Shown here: positions 7,176-32,037 of the stretch, piece after piece
How positions within the stretch are numbered: position 1 is the stretch's first letter
Layout of the letters: the number at the start of each line of letters is the position of its first letter
NCBI GenBank assembly: GCA_027603065.1
Contig: JADGJP010000016.1
Location: 422,652 to 486,651, forward strand
Source of the DNA: Geranomyces variabilis
Taxonomy: Eukaryota; Chytridiomycota; Chytridiomycetes; Spizellomycetales; Powellomycetaceae
Direction of reading: 5' to 3'
DNA: 64,000 bases
Program-made: the position numbers and the translations under genes
Notes under the pieces: model-generated
Database searches by the model: none
Seen by the model: the letters and a program-made list of their open reading frames with translations, nothing else
Told to the model about the DNA's origin: nothing

Positions 7176-10100
7176 CTAATGATTGCAACTTGAGCAGCCC
7201 GAAACATCGACCACATAACCCGAATCTTGCGTTCTAATGTAGCAGGTGAGATGATTGCCCCAAGGCGTGCCCGCGCCGCATACGGAAGGAACAGTGCCCG
7301 ACAGGTGGTTATTGTACATGTTGCTAAGCCGCGAAAACCGAAAGTTAGGGACAGTGCCTGGGGGATGGTTGTAAGGAAGACAACTTACAGCGCAGTTAGG
7401 GCGCCCAAATTGCCCCATTGTGCCGGGAACATCCCCACAGCAAGGGTGTTCTCAATGCGAATATGCGTGAGAGTGGACGCAAGTGCAAAATCTGCGAGCC
7501 AAGTGTATGTCGAAAGATCGTCCGCAAAGCCTGTGCCGGGGCTACCCATGCAGGACGATATGTCTCTGCGTTCCGAGTGAACTGCCCATCAGCTCGAGAT
7601 TGACGATCAGACAAAAGCAATTGAGCTTACAGATTGGTTAGGACAGAGTACGCGATTGCGCTGCCAATGGAGACGGTGGCGACATCGAGAATGACTCTAA
7701 ATAAACGTAAGAAAAAGCCATCAGTCACGCAATAATGTGAAATCACCCATAATCATACGCTGTTACTGCAAAAGCTTACAGGTTCGTCAAACTTGGTATT
7801 GGGTTGGGAATAGTCTGCCCGCCGTCATACGCAGGAATCGTGATGTCCCAACCACCGTCGTTTGCTTTGCTGTGAAAAATTCACAGTCGTTAGCGCAATT
7901 CTTGCGCAGGTTTCCTAAATGGCGCATTATACTTCTGTGGCACATACAATTCTCTTAATAGTGGCAACCGCCAGAAATCTGGGTCGAAAACGGTTGGCGG
8001 ATCGTTCATATTCGCTTGTGAACCGTCGATGGAGCTAGAAGCGCAAAAAGGATGAGTGTTAACCTCTTCCATTGGGCCGCATAAAAACAATTCGAGAGAA
8101 ATGTAAGCCATACAATGTCTCCAAGTTAATAAGCCACTGCATCCAGGATGGGACGCCAGCATCTAGTCCATCTACAACAGCTCTGCAAAATGGATGAGGA
8201 TTAGCGAGTGGGCACGACAGATTCAACTAGCACTTGTCACGATGACTCACATATCGCTGACGAGCCCTTCGGCCGTGCAAGTGACAGTGCTCTCGCCGGA
8301 CCACGAGCACGGGTCCAGATTAACCATCCACCCGTCAAAGTACGCCGCATTAGGCGCATCTCCGTTGTCCACCGCCCAGTTGCCCAGCACACAAAAGTTC
8401 AAAACAGCGGCGGTTAGCACACCCACGTCCGTCAGGCATGACGAGGTACAAGTCGACTGAAGGAACGTAAAAACATCAGGGTCTTGGCCTTGCATCAGTG
8501 GACTGCTACTGGGAGTAAGTGCTGCAAATGCAGATGAGCAGGAGTCCCGGAGCGCAAGGTCTGTCGAATCAAGAGGAGCGCCTTTAAGCTTTGTATTGTC
8601 GCTATTGTGATATGTGCGGGCAATAAAGGTGGCGGCTGGAGCAGCAGTAGTTGTCGTTGTGGTCGAGGAAGCAATTTCAGATGTTGTGGTCGTGGTACTT
8701 GACTCCGCCGTCGTGGGCGTTGGTGAAGCTTCCGTCGTCGCTATCGTGATGGTGGTGGAAGAAGCCTCTTCAGATGTTGTCGTGGTCGTGGTACTTAACT
8801 CTGCCGTCGTGGTGCTTGACTCCGCCGTCGTAGTGCTTGACTCCGCCGTCGTGCTCGTTGTTGAATCTTCCGTCGTCGCTATTGTGGTGGTGGTGGAAGA
8901 AGCTATTTCAGATGATGTCGTGGTCGTGGTACTTGACTCTTCCATCGCGGTCGTTGTTGAAGCTTCCGTTGTCGTTGTCGAATCTCCCGTCGTCGTTGTC
9001 GAAACCTCTGTTGTTTGGGTCGAGGCTTCCATTGTCGTTGTTGAGGCCTCCGTTGTTGTGGTCGAAGTTTCAGTTGTCGTTGTTGAGGCCTCCGTTGTCG
9101 CGGTCGTGGCGGAGGTCACAGTCAGCGTAGGTGTTTCTGAGCTCGACTCTGGAGTGGACGTACTGCTTGACGTTTCGACGGTCGTGGCGGAGCTTTCTGT
9201 TGTCGTGGAGCTTTCAGAGCTGGTCGCTGTCATTGTGCTTTCAGCAGTTGTCGTAGCGGAACTCTCTGTCGTGCTTGTGCTCGACTCTTCACTAGACGTC
9301 GTGGTCGTGATGGACTCAGTGGTAGTCGTTGAGCTCTGTTCCGTGGAGGTGGTGGGTACTGTGGTGATGGTCGTGAGCTCGGTAGGCGTGGATGAAGTCT
9401 CTGTCGAAGTCGGGCTCTCGATGCTTGTTGTGGTGGTTGTTGTCGTCGTGGTTCCCAGCTCGCCAGTAGTAGTCGAGCTTTCGGCTGTCGTCGTCGTGCT
9501 CGGCTCGGTGGTGGCTGTTGAGCTTTCGGTGGTGGTGCTCGGTTGCGTGGTAGCAGTCGAGCTCTCGGTTGTGGTGCTCAGCTGCGTAGTAGTGCTTAAG
9601 CTCTCGGTCGTGGTGCTCTGCTGGGTAGTAGTGGTTGAGCTTTCGGTTGTAGTGCTTGACTGGGTAATAGCAGTCGCGCTCTCAGTCATAGTGCTCGGCT
9701 GCGTGGTAGTAGTTGAGCTTTCGACCGTCGCTGTGCTCGAGGTTTCGGCTGTCGACGTGGCACTCGGCTCGATGGTGGTGGTTGAGCTTGCGGTCGTGGT
9801 GCTCGGTTGCGTTGTAGCAGTCGAGCTCTCGGTCGTGGTGCTCGGGTGGGTAGTCATGGTTGAGCTTTCGGTCGTAGTGCTCGACTGGGTAATAGCAGTC
9901 GGGCTCTCAGTCGTTGTGCTCGGCTGTGTGGTAGTACTCGAGATTTCGGATGTCGACGTGGTACTCGGCTGCGTAGTGGCAAGCGTTCTTGTGCTCTCGG
10001 TAGTAGGGCTGTTAGTAGTCGTGGGAGCGAGCGTATACGAAGGCATTGCCATCAAAGATGAGGTTGTCGTTGCCGTAGTCTGCACAATTGCAGAGGGCGA

Positions 10101-13100
10101 TGATGTGGTAGTTGTGCTTGCAATGCTGGCTGACGTGCTCGAGGTCGCAATGTTGTCAGTGGTTGCGCCCACGGCTGAAGGCGTGGTTGTGGAGGATGAG
10201 ATTGTTACCGCCGCAGCTGGTTGAACTTGGGAAACAGCAGCAGATGATGTCGTTGAAGAGGTCACCGGAGGCGCGGCGACAGTTTGTGCGGGAGCTGTCG
10301 GATTTTGTGAGCTCGCGATCACAGCAGGCGACGAAGTCGCTGGAGGGACAGCAACCGACAGAATACTAGATGCCAAGGCATTCGTGGACGTCGTGGTCGT
10401 TGTTCCATTTGCTGGTGCCACTTCTGAATAATTGCCGACAGAAAGCGCCGCCAGCGCGGCTTTGGCAGTAATCGTGTCCTTGACCACAGCGACGTTGAGC
10501 AAGATCAGATTCGTCATAAAAAGTAGCACAAAGATTCCCAAGCATAGTGTGCTGCAGCATCCTCTGGCGATATTTGCGCCTGTGCAGCAAGCGGCGCATG
10601 CCCCCGGTTTCCGCCTCTTCTTTCGCTCAGCTTTGTTTGGATTTACGTTCCACGAGATCCACGGAAAAAACCGCAGCTTTCGCCGTGTTTCATATACTTC
10701 ATACACTTCGACTGACGGTCCTTCGCCGTCGATGCCCGCAGCTGCAGCTTCAGATGACGGTCCAGGATCCCCGCCGCCTGACGGAGGAAGTTCCGTCCTC
10801 TCGACTCGCAACATGCTGGCCCTCCCCTTCCCTTTCCGGTCCTTTATACCGCTTTTTTCATCTGCTGCCGGTGTTGCTTGGAGAGCTGCGACATTTACAT
10901 TGACCTCCATGGGTCTCTGCGGTGCAAATTCCAATGCGCGCAAGCTCGGCGGCGCCGCAATTGGCGTCGGCAGCATAAACGGGGCTGGTGCCACCAGATT
11001 GCTCGAGCCTGCGTTCGGCATAACGATAATTGCATCGCGGGCGGGACTATCGGCGACATGCGTGACGCCTTGCAAGCCTGTAGCAGGATTCCAGTTGACG
11101 TGGAAGACCGGCCCTGCTGAGGGCGGTGGGGCAGCAACCTTTCCGATGGACAGCGCAGCGTAGGGGTCTACGGTTGGCGCTGAGACGATAGGTGGTATTG
11201 GCTGGCGGGGAGCGACAACGACGCTTTTTGCTGGCGGTGGTGCAGCGTCCACAGAAGGCGCGGCCACTTTTCCAACTAATGCCAGCGGCACTTCGATTGC
11301 GGTTTCGATTGCAACCTGCGAACCTGTTGACCTCCCAACGGGTGCCGGCGCTGCGGTTGCGGAATTGGACACGAACGATGGTCCCGCCAGCTTTCCAATG
11401 GACATCCCAGATACAGGAGGTTGCGCCATGTTCAACGTAGGGTCAAGCTTTCCGATGGACGCCGGGTTGACCTTCCCAATTCCTCCAGGGTCCACCTTTC
11501 CAATCGAAGTCGGGTCCATCTTTCCGACTGAGGCAGGGTCCACCCTCCCTATCGAGGTAGGGGCCACCCTTCCGATCGATGCAGGATTTACCCGCCCAAC
11601 TGATGCAGGTTGCACTCTCCCAATGGTTGCCGGGTCCACCTTTCCGACTGAGGTTGCGTCAACCTTTCCAATTGATGCAGAGTCGACCTTCCCGACTGAT
11701 GCAGGATTTACCCTCCCAATCGATGCAGGGTCCACCACCTGTCCGGTTGACAAAACGTCCGCCTTGCCGATGGAAGCAGAGCTCATCCTTCCAATTGATG
11801 CCGAGGGTGTTCTTCCGGCGTTTGCAGAATCCCTCTTACCAATTGAGCCGGTCGAAATGACCGCAGGCCGCGGAGTATCGACGACAATTCCGACAGCTCC
11901 AGGCTCAGTGCTAGCGAACGACGGTGGTTTCTCTCCAGCCTCGACCACATTGGCTTGTGAGCCACCGGCTCCCTGCGGGCGACCCTGTGGTTTTTGTTTT
12001 TTGAGTCCGTACAAGTCGCGATCTGTGAATGACGGGGTCTTTTGCACGGCATGCGGAATGTGCAAACGCGAGGCGGAGGGGTCTGTAAGCGCAACAGCCC
12101 CGACGGACGGCGGGCCTGCGCCCGGTGCAGTGGCAGATGGCACGGCTCGCGGCTGACTGGTCGGTTTGACTTCAGGGGCTTTTGCGCCCCCGCGATACTG
12201 TAACGGAATAGCGGGAACTGGCAGCTCCTCGTATGAGTCACTGACCACGACATCGAGCTTTGACGTTTCTGGAGAGAAATTGTCGTCATCGACAACCTGG
12301 TGCGCGAGCTTTGAGCCTACGAGTGGTTTGTTGCTCGTCATAAATCCGCTAGCTTGCACCTGCGATTGCTGTCGCGGAACAGAAGTTGATGGGCGAATGT
12401 AGGTCCCAAGGCGAGTGAGCTTTGAGGACAACAAATTGACGATGGAAAATAGTTCAAGTCCAGACTCAAGTGAAGATTCGCCGAATTCGCCTGAAGCCCC
12501 CCAAGCACCGTCACGCAGGCGCGGTATATCTGAGAAAGAGGAAATTACGCAAACAGATGTCGGTTTTTGTGGGAAGGGAAGTTGTGACCGGCTTTCATAC
12601 CTTGTTCAACATCTCTGATGCGACTCTCCAGTTCTGCACGATATTTTTCGTCCTCTGACTCGCGGGCGCTTTGCTGAGCCACGGCAATGAAGCTGTTTGC
12701 CGCAGAGATGAGCAGTGCGGCCTGCTGGTGGGTGCTCGAGACGTCGCCCCGTTGCGTCGCATCCTGCAACGCCGTGGTCGCATGTCGCACGATCGAAGCT
12801 TGAGAGGTCAAGGGTGCTGGCGGACGAGATCCCTCATGTGCACCAACAGACAATCTCGGAGCTGAATCTACTACAGGTGTCGTTCCCCGTGTCGGCTCGC
12901 TAGACCGACCGCCACCGGAGCTGCTCGACGAGCTGAGCCGAGGCGGGGCGCGAGTCGGCGGTTGCGCAGCCAAGGACTCTAGCGATGGCAGGCCAAAGCT
13001 TGCAATCGACTGACTTGGAACAACCACTGCGGACAGTCCACGCATTTTGGCTGTCGAATCGGTCATTTGCGGCTTGACCCCAATGCCGGCCATTGTGATC

Positions 13101-21540: not shown

Positions 21541-23676
21541 TCAAAGCTGGAACTCTGGCAATGCCCGCTCGCCGCCAACGCTACTTCCACCGTCCACCCG
21601 CATCTTTTTCCGCGCAGGGCTCGACACTTCACTGTAGTTAAGTGGCAGCAATGACGAGTCACACGGCTGCAGCAAATGGTGGTGTGGTCGCAACGGACTC
21701 GGCGTCGCGTGTAAACCATTGTTTTGCCGCTTGAGCGATGCCGCAGGCGTGCTCGCTACAGACGTGACTGGCGTTGCTTGCGGGTCGGCTCCAAACAACC
21801 GGCGGGCGGGCGGGCGCGACGGTGTGCCGACCGGCGTGGCGAGAATGTCGTGACTGTGGTCAGGATCAAAGTCTTCGCCATCTCCTCCTCCTACTCCTGC
21901 TTCCTCCCCTCTGCTTGCCGTTCCGTCCCCTATACGCCGGTCCACAATAAAATCAATGACACTGTCCCCTGATAAGTTCTCCAGTCCACCATCAAACACT
22001 TCCGACTGCTGCAAGTTTCGGTACATTATCCGGAACGCGCGCTGGATTTTCTGCCGCTTCCCGTTGTCGCGCGCAAATATCCGCAGCGTCAGCTCCTCAA
22101 ACAGCGGCGGCAGCAGCGCAGACACGTTTTGCCGCGCGATCGGAAAACTGACGTTCGGGTGATACTTTTGGTAAAAGTGAATCAAATCTACAGGATTTTT
22201 GTCCTTCATCGCGTAGCCGAGCTTTAACCACTCGATCACCACGTCGTTTTCCGTGAGCCCGTCGCCGGTGCACTGATGCGCGATGATCGCATCGGGAGTC
22301 ACTGCCTCGCGGAGCTTAGCCTCGAACTCCAGCTGGATGGGAACTGCGTCAACAAATCGGTACAGATCGCGCGTACGGATGCGCTCAATGATGTGTCGTG
22401 ATTTCGCAAGCTCGGGAGCAGTGCTACGCTCAATTTCTTTGATGATAGCGTCGGTCACGTGAACATAGCGCTTCATGTCGTCAACCGATGAAGATATGCC
22501 GAGGTATTTGTCAGCGGCGAGAAGCGCCTCTGAAACCATGTATTCTGTAGCCTTGCCTGAAAAAGTTACGATGTGGTATTAGCCAAAGCGGCCTGCCAAA
22601 ACACTTACAGAGCTGAAAGAAAGCACAATTGACGATGGCCACGCCGCACATACCAACTTTATGTGTATAAATAGTCTTGAATAAACGATATCGGGTATGA
22701 AACATCTCGTAGAGGTTGAAAGCCTCCCCCTTGTAATAACAAATTTGATTGTCGATGACGCGGGAAAAAGTCATGAGCCGCAGAGCGTCTAGGCTCGTTT
22801 TGATCCCCACGTTGTGACAGTCCCGTTGAATATAATCAAACTAGACGGGGAGCGAGGCGGATCAGTGAACCACCTTCTCGGTAAGCCACGGCCAGCGGAG
22901 CGAAACTCGACAAGAGAACACCATACCTTATCTACATCCACAGAATTGCGTTTATTCGCAACAATCTCAAACAAAAATCGCTTTGCTGCCCGCGGGTATT
23001 GCGAGCGCGGTTTCCCATTTATCAAATCTTGGATAAACTCAAGCTCCTCCCTGTTGATGTTCACGTGCGGGTTCTCATCAACCAGGTACTGCAGCATAGC
23101 GCCCGACGCATCCTCATGCGTCCATTCCAACCCAGGCCGCGCCTGCTTCATAAATTCGTTGTCAAAAATATGGGAAAACGGGCCGTGGCCGAGGTCGTGG
23201 CACAGCCCGGCAAGTTTGACGCATTTGACGTCGTTGTCGGTGATGCCCAGCTCGGGCTGGTTAGTGCGGAAATGCTCAACGAGAACGCCTGCAAGGTGGC
23301 AGACGCCGATGGAGTGCTCAAAGCGATTGTGGGCCGCGCCTGTTTTTCAATGCAACAATGAAGTAAGGGTCTGGATCAAATTTCTGCTCAGCGATAAGCA
23401 GAACTCACGCTTGCTCTCAAAGCAAGATCTGCAGGATCCTTGCTCCCGTTTCTACTTACCAGGAAAGACAAAATAGGCGCTGCCGAGCTGTTTGAGATCG
23501 CGCAGGCGCTGGAACTGCACTGTGTCGATGACTTTCATGCAGTCCTCGTCGAGCTTAATGTGACCATGAATGGGGTCGTTGATGGTTTTAGAGTAGGAGA
23601 CCGGGGCAGCCTCTTGCGATGAGAGCGGTGAGCAGCCGAAATCGTCATCGTCTATAGCCCAGTCGTAGCGGGACAT
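21541..23676 (-). CDS. SAMHD1: SAMHD1-like HD-domain dNTP triphosphohydrolase
   Basis: Four exons, complement(join(21541..22556,22654..22840,22927..23339,23460..23676)), 610 aa. The HD core is complete: [30 protein letters not shown], metal-binding HNRFEHSIG and [11 protein letters not shown] (the H...HD...D set), then [43 protein letters not shown] and [17 protein letters not shown]. These follow vertebrate SAMHD1 in order; there is no SAM domain. The enzyme cleaves dNTPs to nucleoside plus triphosphate and controls dNTP pools. The C-terminal ~120 residues are Ser/Pro-rich with a basic KKMR patch that could be an NLS. ATG 23676 ([13 protein letters not shown]) is preferred over an upstream in-frame ATG at 23781, which would run towards the divergent gene. 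Confidence 0.92.
22557..22653 (-). other. SAMHD1 intron with an internal acceptor-donor pair
   Basis: Removing the whole 97 nt gives [11 protein letters not shown], the family-consistent join. Inside it, CTTTCTTTCAG, then CTCT (22610-22613), then GTAAGTG form an acceptor directly followed by a strong donor. Using both would leave a 4-nt frameshifting microexon. Confidence 0.6.
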
Positions 23677-25142: not shown

Positions 25143-26780
25143 CTAGCTCCTAAACCAGTCATCTAGCACCTTCTCTATCTGCGGGTATATCTCATCACTA
25201 GTAGCGCCTCGAAAGCTGTGCAGTTTCCCATGCGCGGTGTAGAAATCCAGTAACGGTTTCGTTTGCTCGTGGTACTGGTCCAGCCGGTACTTGAATGTTT
25301 CCTACGAGAATGAAAACCACATACAAACATTCTTTAGCTTTTCTTTGGGTTTTTTGGCGTCGGTGCTTGGACCACCAGCACGATATTTATAGGCTTTATG
25401 CTGCTTTACCACATTGTCGTCGATACGCTTGGCCAGTGGCTCGCCAGTTTCATCGTCGACGCCTTCTTTTAATGGCGGGTTGTAGCTCAGATTGTATGTT
25501 CGGCCCTAGACGCGATGATAGTCAGCAAAACGAGCGCCGCGCGCAAGAGATCCATTTGCGCCGCGACAGACATACACTTGCGGGATGCACCCATCTATCT
25601 GCAAAAGCACGGCAGACAATATCATTAGCATCACCGGGGTACCACGTGCGAGCGCTTTTGCGAGAAAGATATTTACCTATTATCCGCTGCAGAATTACTA
25701 AAGAAAAGAGGGAAGAAAGAGCGTCAGCGTTTATGCACCTCTTTACTGTGCGCGTAACGAAATGTAAGCCCCTCTTTGTGCTTAACCTTCTTCTGGAACG
25801 TCGAGATTGATGACTAGGTCCAGCGGATGGCCTAAGGTCTCGAGATGTGTTTCCAGCGTCTCTGCTTGGGCGCGCGTTCGTGGAAAGCCTAGAAGAGAAG
25901 GAAAAAATGGTTACGCAGTCAGCCGCGATACTTGATCAAAGTCACAAGCTTGCGCGGCCGCATCATACCATCCAACATCCAGTTCTAAAAGTGCGGAGAA
26001 AGAGCGAGCAATACAAAGAGAGTGGCAAATAAGGTGGAGAAGGTGGGAGCCAGAGTGAAAGAGAGAGAGACAGAGAAAGAGAAGCAGGTAAAAAACAAAG
26101 AAAGCCATGGAAATCCTACGCTTCGCATCGCAAAAAACAAGAAATGCTACAGTTCGCTCCACAAAAAAAGAAGCAGGAATGCTACGCTTCGCTCCGCAGA
26201 CCTCGCTCCGCAAACCTCGCTCCACATGCTCACCTTGCCATCCAGTTTGTCCAGCTCATACATAATCAGCTGTACAACAAGCTCATCAGGGACCAAGCCG
26301 CCGTCCTCAATAATCTTTTGGGCTTGCAAGCCAAACGACGTGCCATCCATGATACTCTGTCGCAAAAGATCTCCCGAAGAGATGGTTTCGAGGGCGTAGC
26401 GTTTGGATAGGCGTTTAGTTTGTGTGCCCTTTCCGGCTCCTATAGAGAGGAGGAGGAGACAAGATGGCGGGGGTGGAACGCGTTAGCAAAAGTGCGCCAT
26501 GTAGTCCCGAGGAAACCGGAGAACAGACGTCACCTGGAGAGCCCATGATCAGCGCATGCAAGCGCTTGCCCTCTGTCGTTGCGGGTGTATTTACTGCATG
26601 CGAGGCGGCTTGAGTAGTGGTGGTGTGGACAGAGGAGGAGGAGCGCTGTTGCAGGCGCGAGGCCCGTCGGAGCGATATGAGGTTTTGCGAAGTGAGAGCT
26701 GTCGCAGATGATGGCGTGGAGAGTCGCCGTGCAGCAGCAGCAGCGGCGGCAATGAGAGGCTGCCGTTGCAGCAACAGCAT
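25143..26780 (-). CDS. Mitochondrial adenylate kinase (AK3/Adk2-like, long LID)
   Basis: Eight exons, complement(join(25143..25301,25410..25505,25576..25598,25677..25697,25787..25888,25969..25984,26234..26439,26534..26780)), 289 aa. An Ala/Arg/Ser-rich N-terminus of ~70 residues looks like a mitochondrial presequence. Then P-loop [80 protein letters not shown], and [17 protein letters not shown]: all NMP-binding and LID motifs of the long-form enzyme, without LID Zn cysteines. It phosphorylates AMP using ATP or GTP in the mitochondrion. Three internal exons are only 16, 21 and 23 nt, yet each is required to complete an invariant motif. The intron before the 16-nt exon is large (249 nt) and carries a repeat. 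Confidence 0.93.
25985..26233 (-). repeat. Adenylate kinase intron with sense-oriented GCGGAGCGAAGC repeats
   Basis: In transcript sense, after GTGAGC, there are repeated units of GTGGAGCGAGG, TGCGGAGCGAGG, TGCGGAGCGAAGCGTAGCA, GTGGAGCGAACTGTAGCA and GCGATGCGAAGCGTAGGA, then a CT-rich stretch to TTTTAG. The same units occur in the large introns of the next two genes. Confidence 0.8.
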
Positions 26781-27183
26781 CTTTTTTGGCGAGCACTAAT
26801 AATACTTGGGGGGTATGGGGGTAAAAGGCGTCTGCGTGCATGACGCGCCGTACGCACGGACCGTACGGAGACTGGGAGAGCTATGGGGACCGGTACCCGC
26901 CGGCGCGTGGCTCGTGCAACAACGCTGCAGTCTGACAAACTCATCGCTCGCTGCACAGCCACCGCCGGCTCAACAAATCATCTCCCCAGTTAAACGGCCG
27001 GCGAACGAGAAGCAAACTGCCCTCGATCAGTAATTGCACCAACGGCATTAACATAGGACACATACGCACCCCCTCTGCTCGCTCGCTCGTCCTCGCTGCT
27101 CCCTTAGGTTTGCTACGCCCACAGTGTACCTCTCTCAAAACACGGCATCCCCTTTTTCTCCGCTACCCACGTCAACAACAACC
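26781..27183. other. Divergent promoter between adenylate kinase and bZIP genes
   Basis: 403 bp shared 5' region with CT-rich and GC-rich patches. No exon supported. Confidence 0.4.
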
Positions 27184-28643
27184 ATGGCCCAAAACAACTA
27201 TGACTACATTAGCATGCTCAACATGCCCACCGCCGAGCTGTCGCCGCTCGCTGCTGCCGTAGCCAACGCCAACGGCGGCTCGCCTAACGCTTCTTCGGGA
27301 ACGGAGTATGGCGACCTCGATCTCTGGCTCAAAGCGGACTTTAGCTTTGACAACGGCATGGATATGAGGAATGGGGATTTTGCTGCCAGGGCCAAGGGTG
27401 AGTTTGCGGGAGCGAAGCGTAGCATCTCTCTTCGTGCGGAGCGAAGTGAGGCATTCCTATCTTGTGCTTGTTGTCTCTTTGCGGAGCGAAGCGAAGCATT
27501 CCTGTCCTTTCTGCGATGCGAAGCGTACTCTTTTTGTCCCCCTTTCTTTATTTCTTACCTCTCTCTCTTCGTTTCTCTCTCTCTCTCTCTCTCCTTCGGT
27601 TCCTCTTTCTCGCCCTTTCACCTACCTACCTCCCTCCCTTCAGCTAATGCATATGACATTCCCTCGCCTATTCGCTCTGCGGCCGCGCATCACCCTTCGC
27701 CCATGCTCTCGCAGCAGCGACACGACGAAGGATTCAGCCACAGCCACGCGGCTGCTGCCGTCGCGGCCGCCGCCGCTGCTGCTGCTGCAGCACCGTCACT
27801 CATCGTCCCGACGGGTTTTGCTCAGCCTGGATCCGCCTACCCGGGCGCGGCGCAGGACGTCATCAACATGTTTTCCATCGGCGGCGTCCCTTCCAGCGCA
27901 AACAGCAGCAGCGGCAACAACAGTAACAACCTGACTGTCGAGCAGTTCCTCGCCGCAGCAGCTGCCGCGAGCGGCGTTCAAGCCGCTGCTTCTGCCGCTG
28001 AGCTCGCCTCCTCCTCCTCCTCTTTCTCACCATCGTCAATCATGGCCGCCGCCGCCGCTAAAGCTGCGCCGGAAGAACAGCAGCAGCAGCAGCAGCGTGA
28101 AAAGACGCTTGAGGAAATTGATAAGCGTCGGCGCAACACGGCGGCGTCGGCGCGGTTCCGGTTGAAGAAGAAACAGCGCGAGCAGGCGCTTGAGCAGACT
28201 GCGCGTGACATGAGTGAAAAGGCTGCCAAGCTGGAGCTGCGTGTGAAAGAGTATGAGATGGAGCTTAAGTGGCTGAGGCAGCTGGTCACGGACCGGGATG
28301 GCAAAAAAAGGCTCAGGGATTTTTACGCCGAGGTATGCGGAGGGAGAAGAGAGAGAGACAAAGAGAGCGAACTGGCGGGAAGAACTGGCGGGAAGAGCTG
28401 TCAATTAATGATTCTTCTTTTCTTTCTTTTTTTCTTTTCTTGTGCTTTTTCTGTGCCGACCGATAGAGCGGTCTGGCGTTTACAGAGGGCACTATGGCAG
28501 CGGGCACTGGCCTTGGGGCCGAGTCGAGTGAGTTTACGGCCGCCGCGGCTGCGTTTGTTGGCGCACTTGGGCTCTCGCAGCAGCAGCACGAGGAAAACGA
28601 GGATTTGGAGCAAGACAAGAAACGCCGCCGGGTGGTGGTGTGA
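27184..28643 (+). CDS. bZIP transcription factor (Cys-3/MetR/Gcn4-type basic region)
   Basis: Three exons, join(27184..27397,27644..28332,28467..28643), 359 aa. The N-terminal two thirds is low-complexity (Ala, Ser, Asn and Gln runs), typical of activation regions, with an acidic-aromatic patch GDLDLWLKADFSFDNG. The basic region is RRRNTAASARFRLKKK, matching the N-x-x-A-A/S-x-x-C/S/A-R consensus, followed by a leucine zipper with heptad hydrophobics (QALEQTARDMSEKAAKLEL...). In fungi the closest named types are Cys-3/MetR-like sulfur regulators and ATF4-like factors. Target genes cannot be inferred. A C-terminal acidic stretch then a basic KKRRR tail could add an NLS. Intron 1 (246 nt) carries the GCGGAGCGAAGC repeat. 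Confidence 0.88.
27398..27643 (+). repeat. bZIP intron with sense-oriented GCGGAGCGAAGC repeats and CT tract
   Basis: After GTGAGTTT come GCGGGAGCGAAGCGTAGCA, TGCGGAGCGAAGTGAGGCA, TGCGGAGCGAAGCGAAGCA and TGCGATGCGAAGCGTACTC, spaced by CT/TTG-rich linkers, then CTCTCTCT and CAG. Two of the blocks nearly match units of the adenylate kinase intron. Confidence 0.8.
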
Positions 28644-28810
28644 GAAAAAGAAAGGAGGGAGGAGGAAGGAAGGAGAATGATGGAATGCATCCCTGCGCTT
28701 TTTGTGTGCCCCTCCTCCCCCCCTTTGTGTAGCTTTATTTTTTATTTTCGTCCGTGCTCAATTTAACAATTATATTTTTTTTCATTTCGTTGTGGTGAGC
28801 GGCTGAGATT

Positions 28811-28836
28811 GGATGGATGGATCGGATGGATGGATG
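28811..28836. repeat. (GGAT)n microsatellite
   Basis: Imperfect GGAT repeat with one GGATC interruption. Confidence 0.85.
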
Positions 28837-29094
28837 GGGGCATGCTCGACTTTGCGCATGCTGTTCAAGAACCCCTTTTCACATGGGGGATTAAGTATCA
28901 TAGGAAGGTATAAATTAATGCCACGCTGGTAGCACCTGGCATGAGGGAGGAGGGGAGGGAGGAGAGAGCTTGCTTGCTTGCCAAGGGCCCTTGCTTGATT
29001 CCTGCCCGTGATTCGTGAAGGAACAAGCAAGCCGTGTTTTTATATGCGTGCGCCGTGGGGCTGGCTGTGCGACCGTCGTAACAGGCGCGTGACC

Positions 29095-29127
29095 GACTGA
29101 CTGACTGACTGACTGACTGACTGACTG
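29095..29127. repeat. (GACT)n microsatellite
   Basis: Eight perfect GACT units. Confidence 0.9.
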
Positions 29128-29521
29128 CATCATACTGTACTGTACGCATCTGATTTGATTCTGAGAGGCATGTGAAATGCCCCCCCCTCCCCCAGAACCC
29201 ACAGAAACGAAGGCCCATTCCTCCCCCCCATCGTCCGTCGGGCTTTAACTGTCTATTTCTTATATCCTTGCGTCTCCGCATCTCATCCTCTCGCTCTCTC
29301 TCGCTCTCTCTCCCTCGCCTTCGTTTATCGATCAGTCAGTCAGTACTCACTCGCCGCTGGGCACTCCGCTCCTCCTCCCACCACCACCACACACCCCACC
29401 CCCACCCACACACGCACGCACCCGCGCATTTGCATTGCCTTGCCTTGCCCTTGCCTTGCTCCTCCCTCTCTCCCGCCTCGTTTGTCTCTAATCCGCCTCG
29501 CCTCGACTCGTCTCGCCTCAT

Positions 29522-29810
29522 ATGGACCTCGCCGCCGCCCTCCACGAGCATGAGCGCGGCGTCGCTGCTCTGCGCGCTAGCTTGACCGCAACCGTCGCTG
29601 CGCTGCGCAAGGACATGGATTTCTCCAGACGCGAGCTGCACCATCTTGCAGAGATTCTTGTTGATGATGGTATGGCGGAGTGAAGCGAAGCGACTTTGCG
29701 GAGCGAAATGCGAAGCGCAGCGAAGCACTTCTGTCTGCAAGGCGAAGCGATTTTGCGGAGTGAAGCGAAGCACTCCTCTCCCTTGCCATATTTCTTACCA
29801 CTTTTGCTTT

Positions 29811-29852
<42 letters not shown>

Positions 29853-29928
29853 GCTCTTTCTCTATTTCTCTCTCTCTCTTTCTCTCTCTCTCTCTTCTCT
29901 CTCTTTCTCCATCTCTCTTCTCTCTCTT

Positions 29929-29978
<50 letters not shown>

Positions 29979-31561
29979 CTCTCTTTCTCTATCTCTCTGT
30001 CTCTCTTTCTCTCTCCCCTCAGCCTTGCTGTTTCGCTTTTACAAAAAGCACAAATACCAGCACAAGGCCGCCGAACAGGCCTTGCTCGACCATATCGACT
30101 GGCGGCTGCAAAACGACCTTCCCAATCTCTCCACATACTCGCTTACGCCCAAAGCCCGCCAGCTGTCGCAGGATGGCTTGTTTTATTTCTGGAAAACGGA
30201 TTTGGATGGGCGGCCTTTTGCGGTCGTGAATCTCAAGCATTTGGTAAAAGGAACGGACTTGGAAGACTTGCGCATGCTGTTTGTTGTGCAGATGGAGGTT
30301 GCGCGGAGGCTTGTGCAAGAGATGAATGAGGAAAGCGCTGCGCGGTGTAGCAACGCAAATGCAAACGCAAACCTCATTGTGCAAATCTCGGTGATTTGCG
30401 ACCTCGGCGGCGTCGGCTTGGGAAACGTAAATTACGAAATGATACCCCTGTTTCTCGACCTCTTCAACAAACACTTTCCACAGACCCTCGGCACAGTCTA
30501 CGTCCTCAACTACGGCTGGCTGCACTCGGGAATCTGGTCCATCGTCAAAGCCGCACTACCCGCCGACGCGTGTCGCAAGCTCCAGTTCTGCAACAAGCAG
30601 GACTTGCTCACAAAGTTCGCCGCGGCCGATCTGCAAGATATTCATGGCGGTAGTGATACGGGCGTATTTTGCTTTGCGACTTCGCCGGTCTATACCCGGT
30701 TTGCGCATCCAAATTACCACTCGACCTCGCGGAGGGTGCTGGCTCATATCTCGGCGCTGGATGCTGAGGATGAAGGGTATCACGAGGATGAGGAGGTGTG
30801 GTACGATGCGATGGAGACGCCAATGACGCCCGTACGGTCCGCCGCGGATTTGCAGTCGATGCTGCGCGTCACGTCCGGACGAAACTTGCATGGCATGAAT
30901 CGCGTTGGGTCGACAAAATCGTTGAAATCGCTTTCAACCGCGCGTGGTGGATCGCCCGCAATTGTCGTTGCGAATGGAGCTCCTGGACCCGTCGCGCCAT
31001 TGCCGAATGGGAATAATGGCTTGATGATGCGAACGTTGCAGGCTCCACCGTTGCCATTGTCGATTATACCCCCAACGCCGACAAGTCCGCTGTATGCGAC
31101 TGCGATGAGCTCGCCGACGTCGATGCTGTCGCCGTCTTTGGCTGCGGCGGCGGCTGCCGCTGTTGCTGGTGGTGGGCTTTTTGGCGCATTGTCATCTCCG
31201 CTGGGTCAACAACCCCCAATCATCAACTCTTCCAACGCCGCGCCTTCTTCGTCCGTTGTTGCGCGCATCCCCGGCCGTCGCCGCGCCCTAGTCCGCAAAA
31301 CCCTCGCAAACGCCGTCCGCAGACCCGCGCGGCCCCTCCTCTCGCTTCTTTCCCGAATCTCGCATCACGAAAATGACGAAAACAAATCTCCAGATTTACA
31401 TTCACCATCAACAGCGGTACGCACCAACAACAACAAACAACAACAACGACGAACACGCGCGCTGGCCGTGCTGACCGTGTTTGCGGTCGCGCTGGTGTAT
31501 ACGGGGTGGAAGCGCAAACTGCTGGCCAGGGCGTATTATGCGGTGTGGTTGATGGTGGGTG

Positions 31562-31596
<35 letters not shown>

Positions 31597-32037
31597 GGTG
31601 GGCATGTCCATTCGACGACAAACGCGGCGCGTTCGAGTTTGGCGGCGGCGACAGCTTTGTCAACGACGAGACCGGTGGTGGTGGTGAAAGGCGGGAAGAT
31701 ACGCTCTGTGGTTGCTGATGGGCCTGCGGTGGCGTCGACGCCAACGAACAAGACGGCGACGACGGCGGCGGTGGCACGGTCTTGCGCGAGCGAGTTTGGA
31801 TCTCCTGCTTCTTCTCCTTCTTCGCGCCCCGGCGGCGGTGGTGGGTTGTTGGCAAGGCTTGCTGCTGCGAGTAATGCAAGTGGAATACTTCGACTTCCGC
31901 CGAGTACGAGCGCGAGCGCGAATGCATCTTCTCCGAATACGAATACGAATACGAATGCGTCGGCGCCGCGAGATGTCGGTACGGTTGTCAGCCCGCTTGT
32001 GGCGGTTGCGATTGGTGGAGCGCTGGGAATATATTGA
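29522..32037 (+). CDS. CRAL-TRIO (Sec14-like) lipid-binding protein with C-terminal membrane anchor
   Basis: Two exons, join(29522..29669,30023..32037), 720 aa. A short helical N-terminus (ALHEHERGVAALRASL) and the join ILVDD|ALLFRFYKKHKY lead into a CRAL-TRIO module: LSQDGLFYFWKTDLDGRPFA, VISVICDLGGVGLGNVNYEM, FNKHFPQTLGTVYVLNYGWL and SGIWSIVKAALP, the strand-helix pattern of Sec14 proteins. The C-terminal 400 residues are Ser/Pro/Ala-rich, with a Gly-Arg repeat encoded by GGTCGT at 31560-31600 and one hydrophobic segment (LAVLTVFAVALVYTGW), giving a tail-anchored look. Probably a phospholipid transfer protein at an internal membrane. The single intron is the largest in the window (353 nt). 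Confidence 0.88.
29670..30022 (+). repeat. CRAL-TRIO gene intron with GCGGAGCGAAGC repeats and a 200-nt CT tract
   Basis: Begins GTATGGCGGAGTGAAGCGAA, with further TGCGGAGCGAAATGCGAAGC, GCAGCGAAGCA and TGCGGAGTGAAGCGAAGCA units to about 29775, then an almost pure CT repeat from 29811 to the acceptor CCCCTCAG. Confidence 0.85.

Follow-up and report, generated by a model that had tools for sequence, protein, structure and literature searches.

Three neighbouring, unrelated genes in a 64,000-nucleotide stretch of the genome of the chytrid Geranomyces variabilis (contig JADGJP010000016.1, positions 422,652 to 486,651; hereafter the window) hold introns made of one repeat, which always reads in the sense of the transcript. 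The genes encode an adenylate kinase (AK), a bZIP protein and a CRAL-TRIO protein (hereafter CRAL), which belong to different Pfam families. The introns are homologous and share a common architecture, and within the window this homology is confined to them. We consider the chances about even (roughly 0.5) that a single intron built of repeats was copied from gene to gene among these neighbours and has since diverged into the three seen, rather than that low-complexity sequence expanded independently in each. The coordinates and lengths of the introns, as given in a first-pass annotation of the same DNA, proved correct on direct reading and are listed in Table 1.

Homology between the introns

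Self-comparison of the masked window by BLAST (E up to 1e-4) yielded eight high-scoring segment pairs (HSPs). Six fall within a stretch of coding repeats (8.6-11.8 kb); the remaining two link the three introns: AK with bZIP in inverted orientation (71.7% over 159 nt) and bZIP with CRAL (69.3% over 163 nt). The AK-CRAL similarity lay below the limit of this search. A larger segmental duplication was rejected because the homology is confined to the introns, none having been found outside them in the window within the E limit of 1e-4. Among 66 predicted introns compared under masking together with their 20-nt flanks, pairs with E ≤1e-3 occurred only among AK, bZIP and CRAL, neighbours that share a flank aside; the masked intron-intron values are 4.7e-18 for AK-bZIP, 1.85e-10 for bZIP-CRAL and 6e-4 for AK-CRAL (8e-9 unmasked).

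The repeat heads, which follow the donors, align with scores of 65 (AK-bZIP), 46 (bZIP-CRAL) and 36 (AK-CRAL), each reached by 0 of 1000 shuffles, and the highest scores elsewhere are 26 in 210 other intron-head pairs and 29 in 4941 random noncoding pairs. The tails are also similar beyond their dinucleotide content, as the observed score was reached by only 1 of 500 shuffles for AK-bZIP, 4 for AK-CRAL and 0 for bZIP-CRAL. Global alignment of the introns scored 157.5 for AK-bZIP, 97.5 for AK-CRAL and 115.5 for bZIP-CRAL; the maxima among 300 half-wise shuffles were 78.5, 69.5 and 94.0, respectively. AK and bZIP are collinear in unit order from head through tail, with the same final unit, TGCGATGCGAAGCGTA, and a similar tail, and this collinearity favours common descent. 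The first-pass annotation had already seen that these two introns share TGCGATGCGAAGCGTA, which is the last unit of each array; CRAL does not contain it.

Within the window, the repeat unit itself rises above noise in the three introns only. GCGGAGCGAAGC, with at most one mismatch, occurs at eight sites in the window, against a mean expectation of 0.68 and with 0 of 100 shuffles containing as many, and seven of these sites lie within the three introns, all in sense. The eighth, at chance level, is a one-mismatch site on the plus strand (22895-22906), antisense to a minus-strand gene in whose predicted intron it lies. GCGAAGCG is found exactly at 10 sites in the window, eight of them in the three introns and those all in sense. 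A hidden Markov model (HMM) of the unit was made from seven units, with noise defined by 20 shuffled windows (best score 9.6 bits); eight matches exceeded this value, all of them in the three introns and in sense, and nothing elsewhere in the 64 kb rose above shuffle noise, the top score outside the introns being 3.7 bits. Six of the eight matches are the units from which the model was built, so the informative part of this result is the absence of matches elsewhere together with the two unused units.

These observations bear out the first-pass annotation in its description of tandem units near the donor that are common to the three introns, and in its remark that they were not seen outside introns. 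It had also named outcomes that would speak against its proposal, but in the 64 kb examined the unit is not common in intergenic DNA or antisense to genes, and the introns are related beyond low complexity.

Table 1. Positions in the window of the three genes, their repeat-containing introns and the repeat heads.
Feature	Position	Strand	Description	Basis
AK gene, mitochondrial-type (AK3-like)	25143..26780	-	8 exons, joined by hand	spliced protein
AK intron 2	25985..26233	-	249 nt, phase 0; repeat head, TTACC, pyrimidine-rich AG-free tail	hold-out models; protein alignment
AK repeat head	26108..26223	-	about five units, final one containing TGCGATGCGAAGCGTA	head alignment, unit HMM
bZIP gene	27184..28643	+		PF07716, E 2.1e-08; gene models
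bZIP intron 1	27398..27643	+	246 nt, phase 1; four units, TTTCTTACC, CT-rich AG-free tail	hold-out models; frame check
bZIP repeat head	27404..27527	+	four units, final one containing TGCGATGCGAAGCGTA	head alignment, unit HMM
CRAL-TRIO gene	29522..32037	+		PF00650, E 2.1e-19, in first 322 residues
CRAL-TRIO intron	29670..30022	+	353 nt, phase 1; repeat head, TTTCTTACC, (CT)n tail	hold-out models; in-frame TGA, frame change
CRAL-TRIO repeat head	29674..29779	+	about four or five units, rich in GCGNAGC	head alignment, unit HMM

GCGGAGCGAAGCGWAGCATTCCT had no exact match in viral_contigs; a two-unit pattern matched five contigs of that collection, which by eye carry GC-rich repeats with other flanks, and the unit pattern matched one contig in genome_contigs, a single unit in a Flavisolibacter metagenome-assembled genome. 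A blastn search of 25900-30100 against plasmids returned two matches (49 and 42 query bases), none of them in a repeat head, and no match to a known RNA family or tRNA was found. Repeats resembling GCGTTGCGGAGCGAAGCG, with a similar core and different flanks, were seen on contigs L003 (near 4958) and L005 (near 3085) of the viral collection. Within the window, long tandem repeats with periods of 21 to 225 nt occupy 8689-11736, in a 1452-codon minus-strand open frame without a Pfam match.

Intron anatomy and gene models

From donor to acceptor, each intron consists of an array of units of about 30 nt, a TTACC motif, a pyrimidine-rich tail and the acceptor. The unit core is a series of overlapping GCGNA pentamers (GCGGA-GCGAA-GCG[T/A/C]A-GC), and the first GGAG lies at intron nt 11 in AK, 12 in bZIP and 8 in CRAL. 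The AG-free run before the terminal AG measures 129 nt in AK, 118 nt in bZIP and 250 nt in CRAL; these are the three longest such runs in both gene models (53 and 66 predicted introns). A CT-rich tract reaching to the acceptor, as first described for all three introns, is present in bZIP and CRAL, where the last 90 nt are 91% and 95% pyrimidine, but the AK tail has only 83% and is not a CT microsatellite. Length alone, which had also been put forward as special, does not distinguish the three introns, since other predicted introns in the hold-out model described below are 314, 301, 298 and 269 nt long.

TTACC is found at intron nt 143 in AK (26087-26091, minus strand), 158 in bZIP (27555-27559) and 126 in CRAL (29795-29799), that is, in all three introns; of the remaining predicted introns, 1 of 50 has it in one model and 3 of 63 in the other. 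Because CTRAC, which 10 of 50 other introns carry in their last 80 nt, is absent from the three introns, and CTTAC occurs in two of them (bZIP and CRAL), the TTACC region is at most a putative branch point. TTACC is also the reverse complement of the donor-like GGTAA and, judging from the sequence, could pair with the donor of its own intron.

The gene models were derived from the 64-kb window alone. Two hold-out runs, trained without genes overlapping 25.0-32.1 kb, used seeds that were partly modelled on this region in run 1 and neutral in run 2; both place the three introns at exactly the bounds in Table 1, and the full-window sensitive model gives the same introns. The models disagree elsewhere, for example on small exons and on the second bZIP intron (28334-28467 by hand, 28301-28485 in the hold-out models).

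The three introns are not equally constrained by the proteins. The spliced AK protein (PF00406, E 3.9e-47; PF05191, E 8.4e-14; structure match 2ak3, E 1.5e-59) is a full AK3-type enzyme that aligns without a gap across the intron junction with the AK3 chains 2ak3 and 1zd8. In CRAL, the exon-1 frame hits a TGA within the intron and the domain sits in another frame, so the intron is required for the frame. The bZIP intron, whose length is divisible by three, contains no in-frame stop, and the frame, open throughout, therefore cannot prove it; this intron rests on its splice signals (GTGAGT donor, TTCAG acceptor), the gene models and homology. That the bZIP stretch is instead 82 codons of coding sequence, or an intron whose retention is regulated, is very unlikely. 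Its 246 nt in open frame and the AERSEAF-type repeats encoded when the head is read through would fit such a role, but donor and acceptor are both in place, the hold-out models call an intron, and the AK and CRAL homologs contain in-frame stops.

The repeat intron of AK is separated from the next AK intron by a 16-nt exon (25969-25984, minus strand). The 9-nt exonic repeat AACTGGATG stands at 26239-26247 and 25976-25984 (minus strand), 14 nt before the AK donor and immediately past the acceptor; a match as long was found in 2 of 300 shuffles, and the protein has no inserted residues relative to AK3 at the two copies.

Proposed copying of one intron and its alternatives

If the three introns derive from one, we infer a copying step, in whichever direction, by DNA-level transfer (such as ectopic gene conversion or templated insertion) or by reverse splicing, through which the intron itself may have been gained or an older one filled by the repeat. 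After copying, units and CT tract would have been altered by slippage, and CRAL would have become longer mainly through its CT tract. The AG-free tail would let the spliceosome scan from a branch point in the TTACC region (CTTAC in bZIP and CRAL) to the single downstream AG, all other AGs lying upstream in the head, whereas in a reversed copy the donor would be followed by the pyrimidine tract and the acceptor preceded by AG-rich repeats. Because an AG-rich head with an AG-free tail would be expected to splice one way only, sense orientation on both strands would follow from this polarity and does not on its own argue for an RNA route. The sense-only claim of the first-pass annotation holds for all seven intronic GCGGAGCGAAGC sites but carries less weight than it was given; three of three introns in sense is in any case a weak observation, with a chance of 1/8 (1/4 for all alike). 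The three carriers are consecutive among the 26 genes predicted in the 64 kb, for which the chance is 0.9% if carriers are scattered.

Several points weigh against copying. There are only three copies, with 69-72% BLAST identity, and the CT-rich tails raise this identity. BLAST similarity stops short of both the donor (in AK-bZIP it starts from intron nt 36/38) and the acceptor: the masked AK-bZIP HSP covers nt 36-181 of 249 and 38-196 of 246, whereas in introners the similarity is asked to begin, in both introns, no more than 5 exonic or 10 intronic bases from each boundary. Global alignment does pair the 5' ends of AK and bZIP, but it must align something there. In the unmasked comparison, each of the three introns is also matched, down to E 3e-6 and in opposite orientation, by the predicted bZIP intron at 28301-28485, which has a GA-rich start and a CT-rich end. 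These matches run through GA/CT tracts; CT tracts alone therefore prove nothing. No flanking duplication is common to the three introns, those of bZIP and CRAL being at chance level (71 and 239 of 300 shuffles). TTACC was noticed before it was tested, and its chance of occurring in the first 60 nt of the shuffled tails is 0.07, 0.25 and 0.01. Finally, in the first, stricter gene model the bZIP intron is cut to 126 nt and the CRAL intron to 101 nt, although the model agrees on AK.

It is possible, if somewhat doubtful, that a dispersed tandem repeat of the genome entered three pre-existing introns, so that no intron was created or moved. Low-complexity sequence and a BLAST similarity that lies within the introns rather than end to end would fit such an event, and passages of an introner survey (PMC9860276) name secondary insertion and microsatellites as sources of intron similarity that need filtering. 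The 16-nt exon after the AK intron also points this way, but either of the introns flanking it could be the older one. On the other side, the first GGAG lies at most 12 nt from the donor in all three introns and the tail is shared as well; no leftover ordinary intron was recognised by inspection, in which no formal test was made, and no copy above noise was found elsewhere in the 64 kb.

A convergent expansion selected for splicing, in which purine-rich donor enhancer units pair with the pyrimidine tract and loop out long introns, looks distinctly unlikely. Minimum-energy folds do join head and tail, and the bZIP head-tail duplex is better than most shuffles (reached by 3 of 200). However, the whole-intron fold energy was reached by 101, 72 and 118 of 200 half-wise shuffles for AK, bZIP and CRAL, and the AK and CRAL duplexes are ordinary (90 and 69 of 200), so the pairing comes mostly from composition; as a specific structure it was rejected, with the bZIP duplex as the exception. 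The collinear unit order of AK and bZIP argues against convergence as well.

Relation to introners and other known introns

For an introner family, passages of the survey (PMC9860276) ask that members number four or more, be free of low complexity and resemble one another from close to each boundary. Two of the three pairs here reach E ≤1e-5 under masking between non-paralogous genes; the family has at least three members, those seen in the 64 kb, and the tandem units and CT tract are themselves strongly low in complexity. Because the similarity stops short of both ends and the sequence is of low complexity, we do not class the family as introners, but it may still work like one. Of the first-pass proposal of an introner-like or intron-restricted family, restriction to introns is thus supported within the window and a strict introner is not supported, given three diverged copies of low complexity without a common duplication or terminal inverted repeat (TIR). 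A target-site duplication or TIRs common to the three introns were looked for and not found; no inverted pair with an arm at each end of the intron is common to the three, and bZIP has none of at least 8 nt.

Many introner families carry target-site duplications or TIRs; fungal introners likewise lack them, according to passages of the same survey (PMC9860276). The Dothideomycete introner-like elements among them resemble the present family in this respect and in that unrelated genes of a single genome carry similar introns; here, in contrast, three diverged, repeat-built copies lie in adjacent genes. Algal introners and those of other eukaryotes are likewise sequence-similar introns shared between non-paralogous genes, but the present family falls short of the both-ends and low-complexity demands in these passages and counts at least three members. 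Intronic micro- or minisatellite expansions have similar short tandem units and a CT tract. A simple intronic microsatellite was nevertheless rejected, since the HSPs between three neighbouring genes outlast low-complexity masking and the AK-bZIP unit order is collinear. A class of human exons for which distant branch points are predicted, with AG dinucleotide exclusion zones (PMC1431707), also has a long AG-free tract before the acceptor, whereas in the present introns the distant branch point is putative.

The GCGNAGC heptamer class forms exceptionally stable DNA hairpins. The heads contain five (AK), six (bZIP) and six (CRAL) GCGNAGC heptamers, a motif that, like TTACC, was noticed first and tested afterwards, and each count was matched by 0 of 1000 shuffles. 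The whole introns hold 19, all in sense, of a window total of 71 on both strands. We regard it as rather unlikely that the family is a locally acting introner of GCGNAGC mini-hairpin units, one that would prefer nearby genes as targets for its copies, insert in sense only whichever the strand, and supply the distant branch point and the AG-free tract itself. The N of the 17 head heptamers (A 9, G 5, T 2, C 1) mostly tracks unit position, and the heptamers could therefore simply be an old pentamer array; the other one-base variants are C to T beside G, or GCGATGC (2), with overlapping counts.

Blastocladiella introns measure 55-333 nt, and no repeat of the AK, bZIP and CRAL kind stands among the passages listed from PMC2773782. 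Among the listed literature matches on introners, chytrid introns, intronic tandem repeats and intron transposition between adjacent genes, titles and abstract openings do not describe this family, and the exact 12-mer unit appears in one paper, which by title and abstract opening concerns Pseudomonas.

The origin of new spliceosomal introns is a long-standing question on which this family bears. If the three introns are indeed copies of one, the presence of such a small family in three neighbours and on both strands would speak for copying over short distances and not for transposition across the genome. If only the repeat has spread into older introns, the family would still be a clear case of intron length and AG-free tract growing together.
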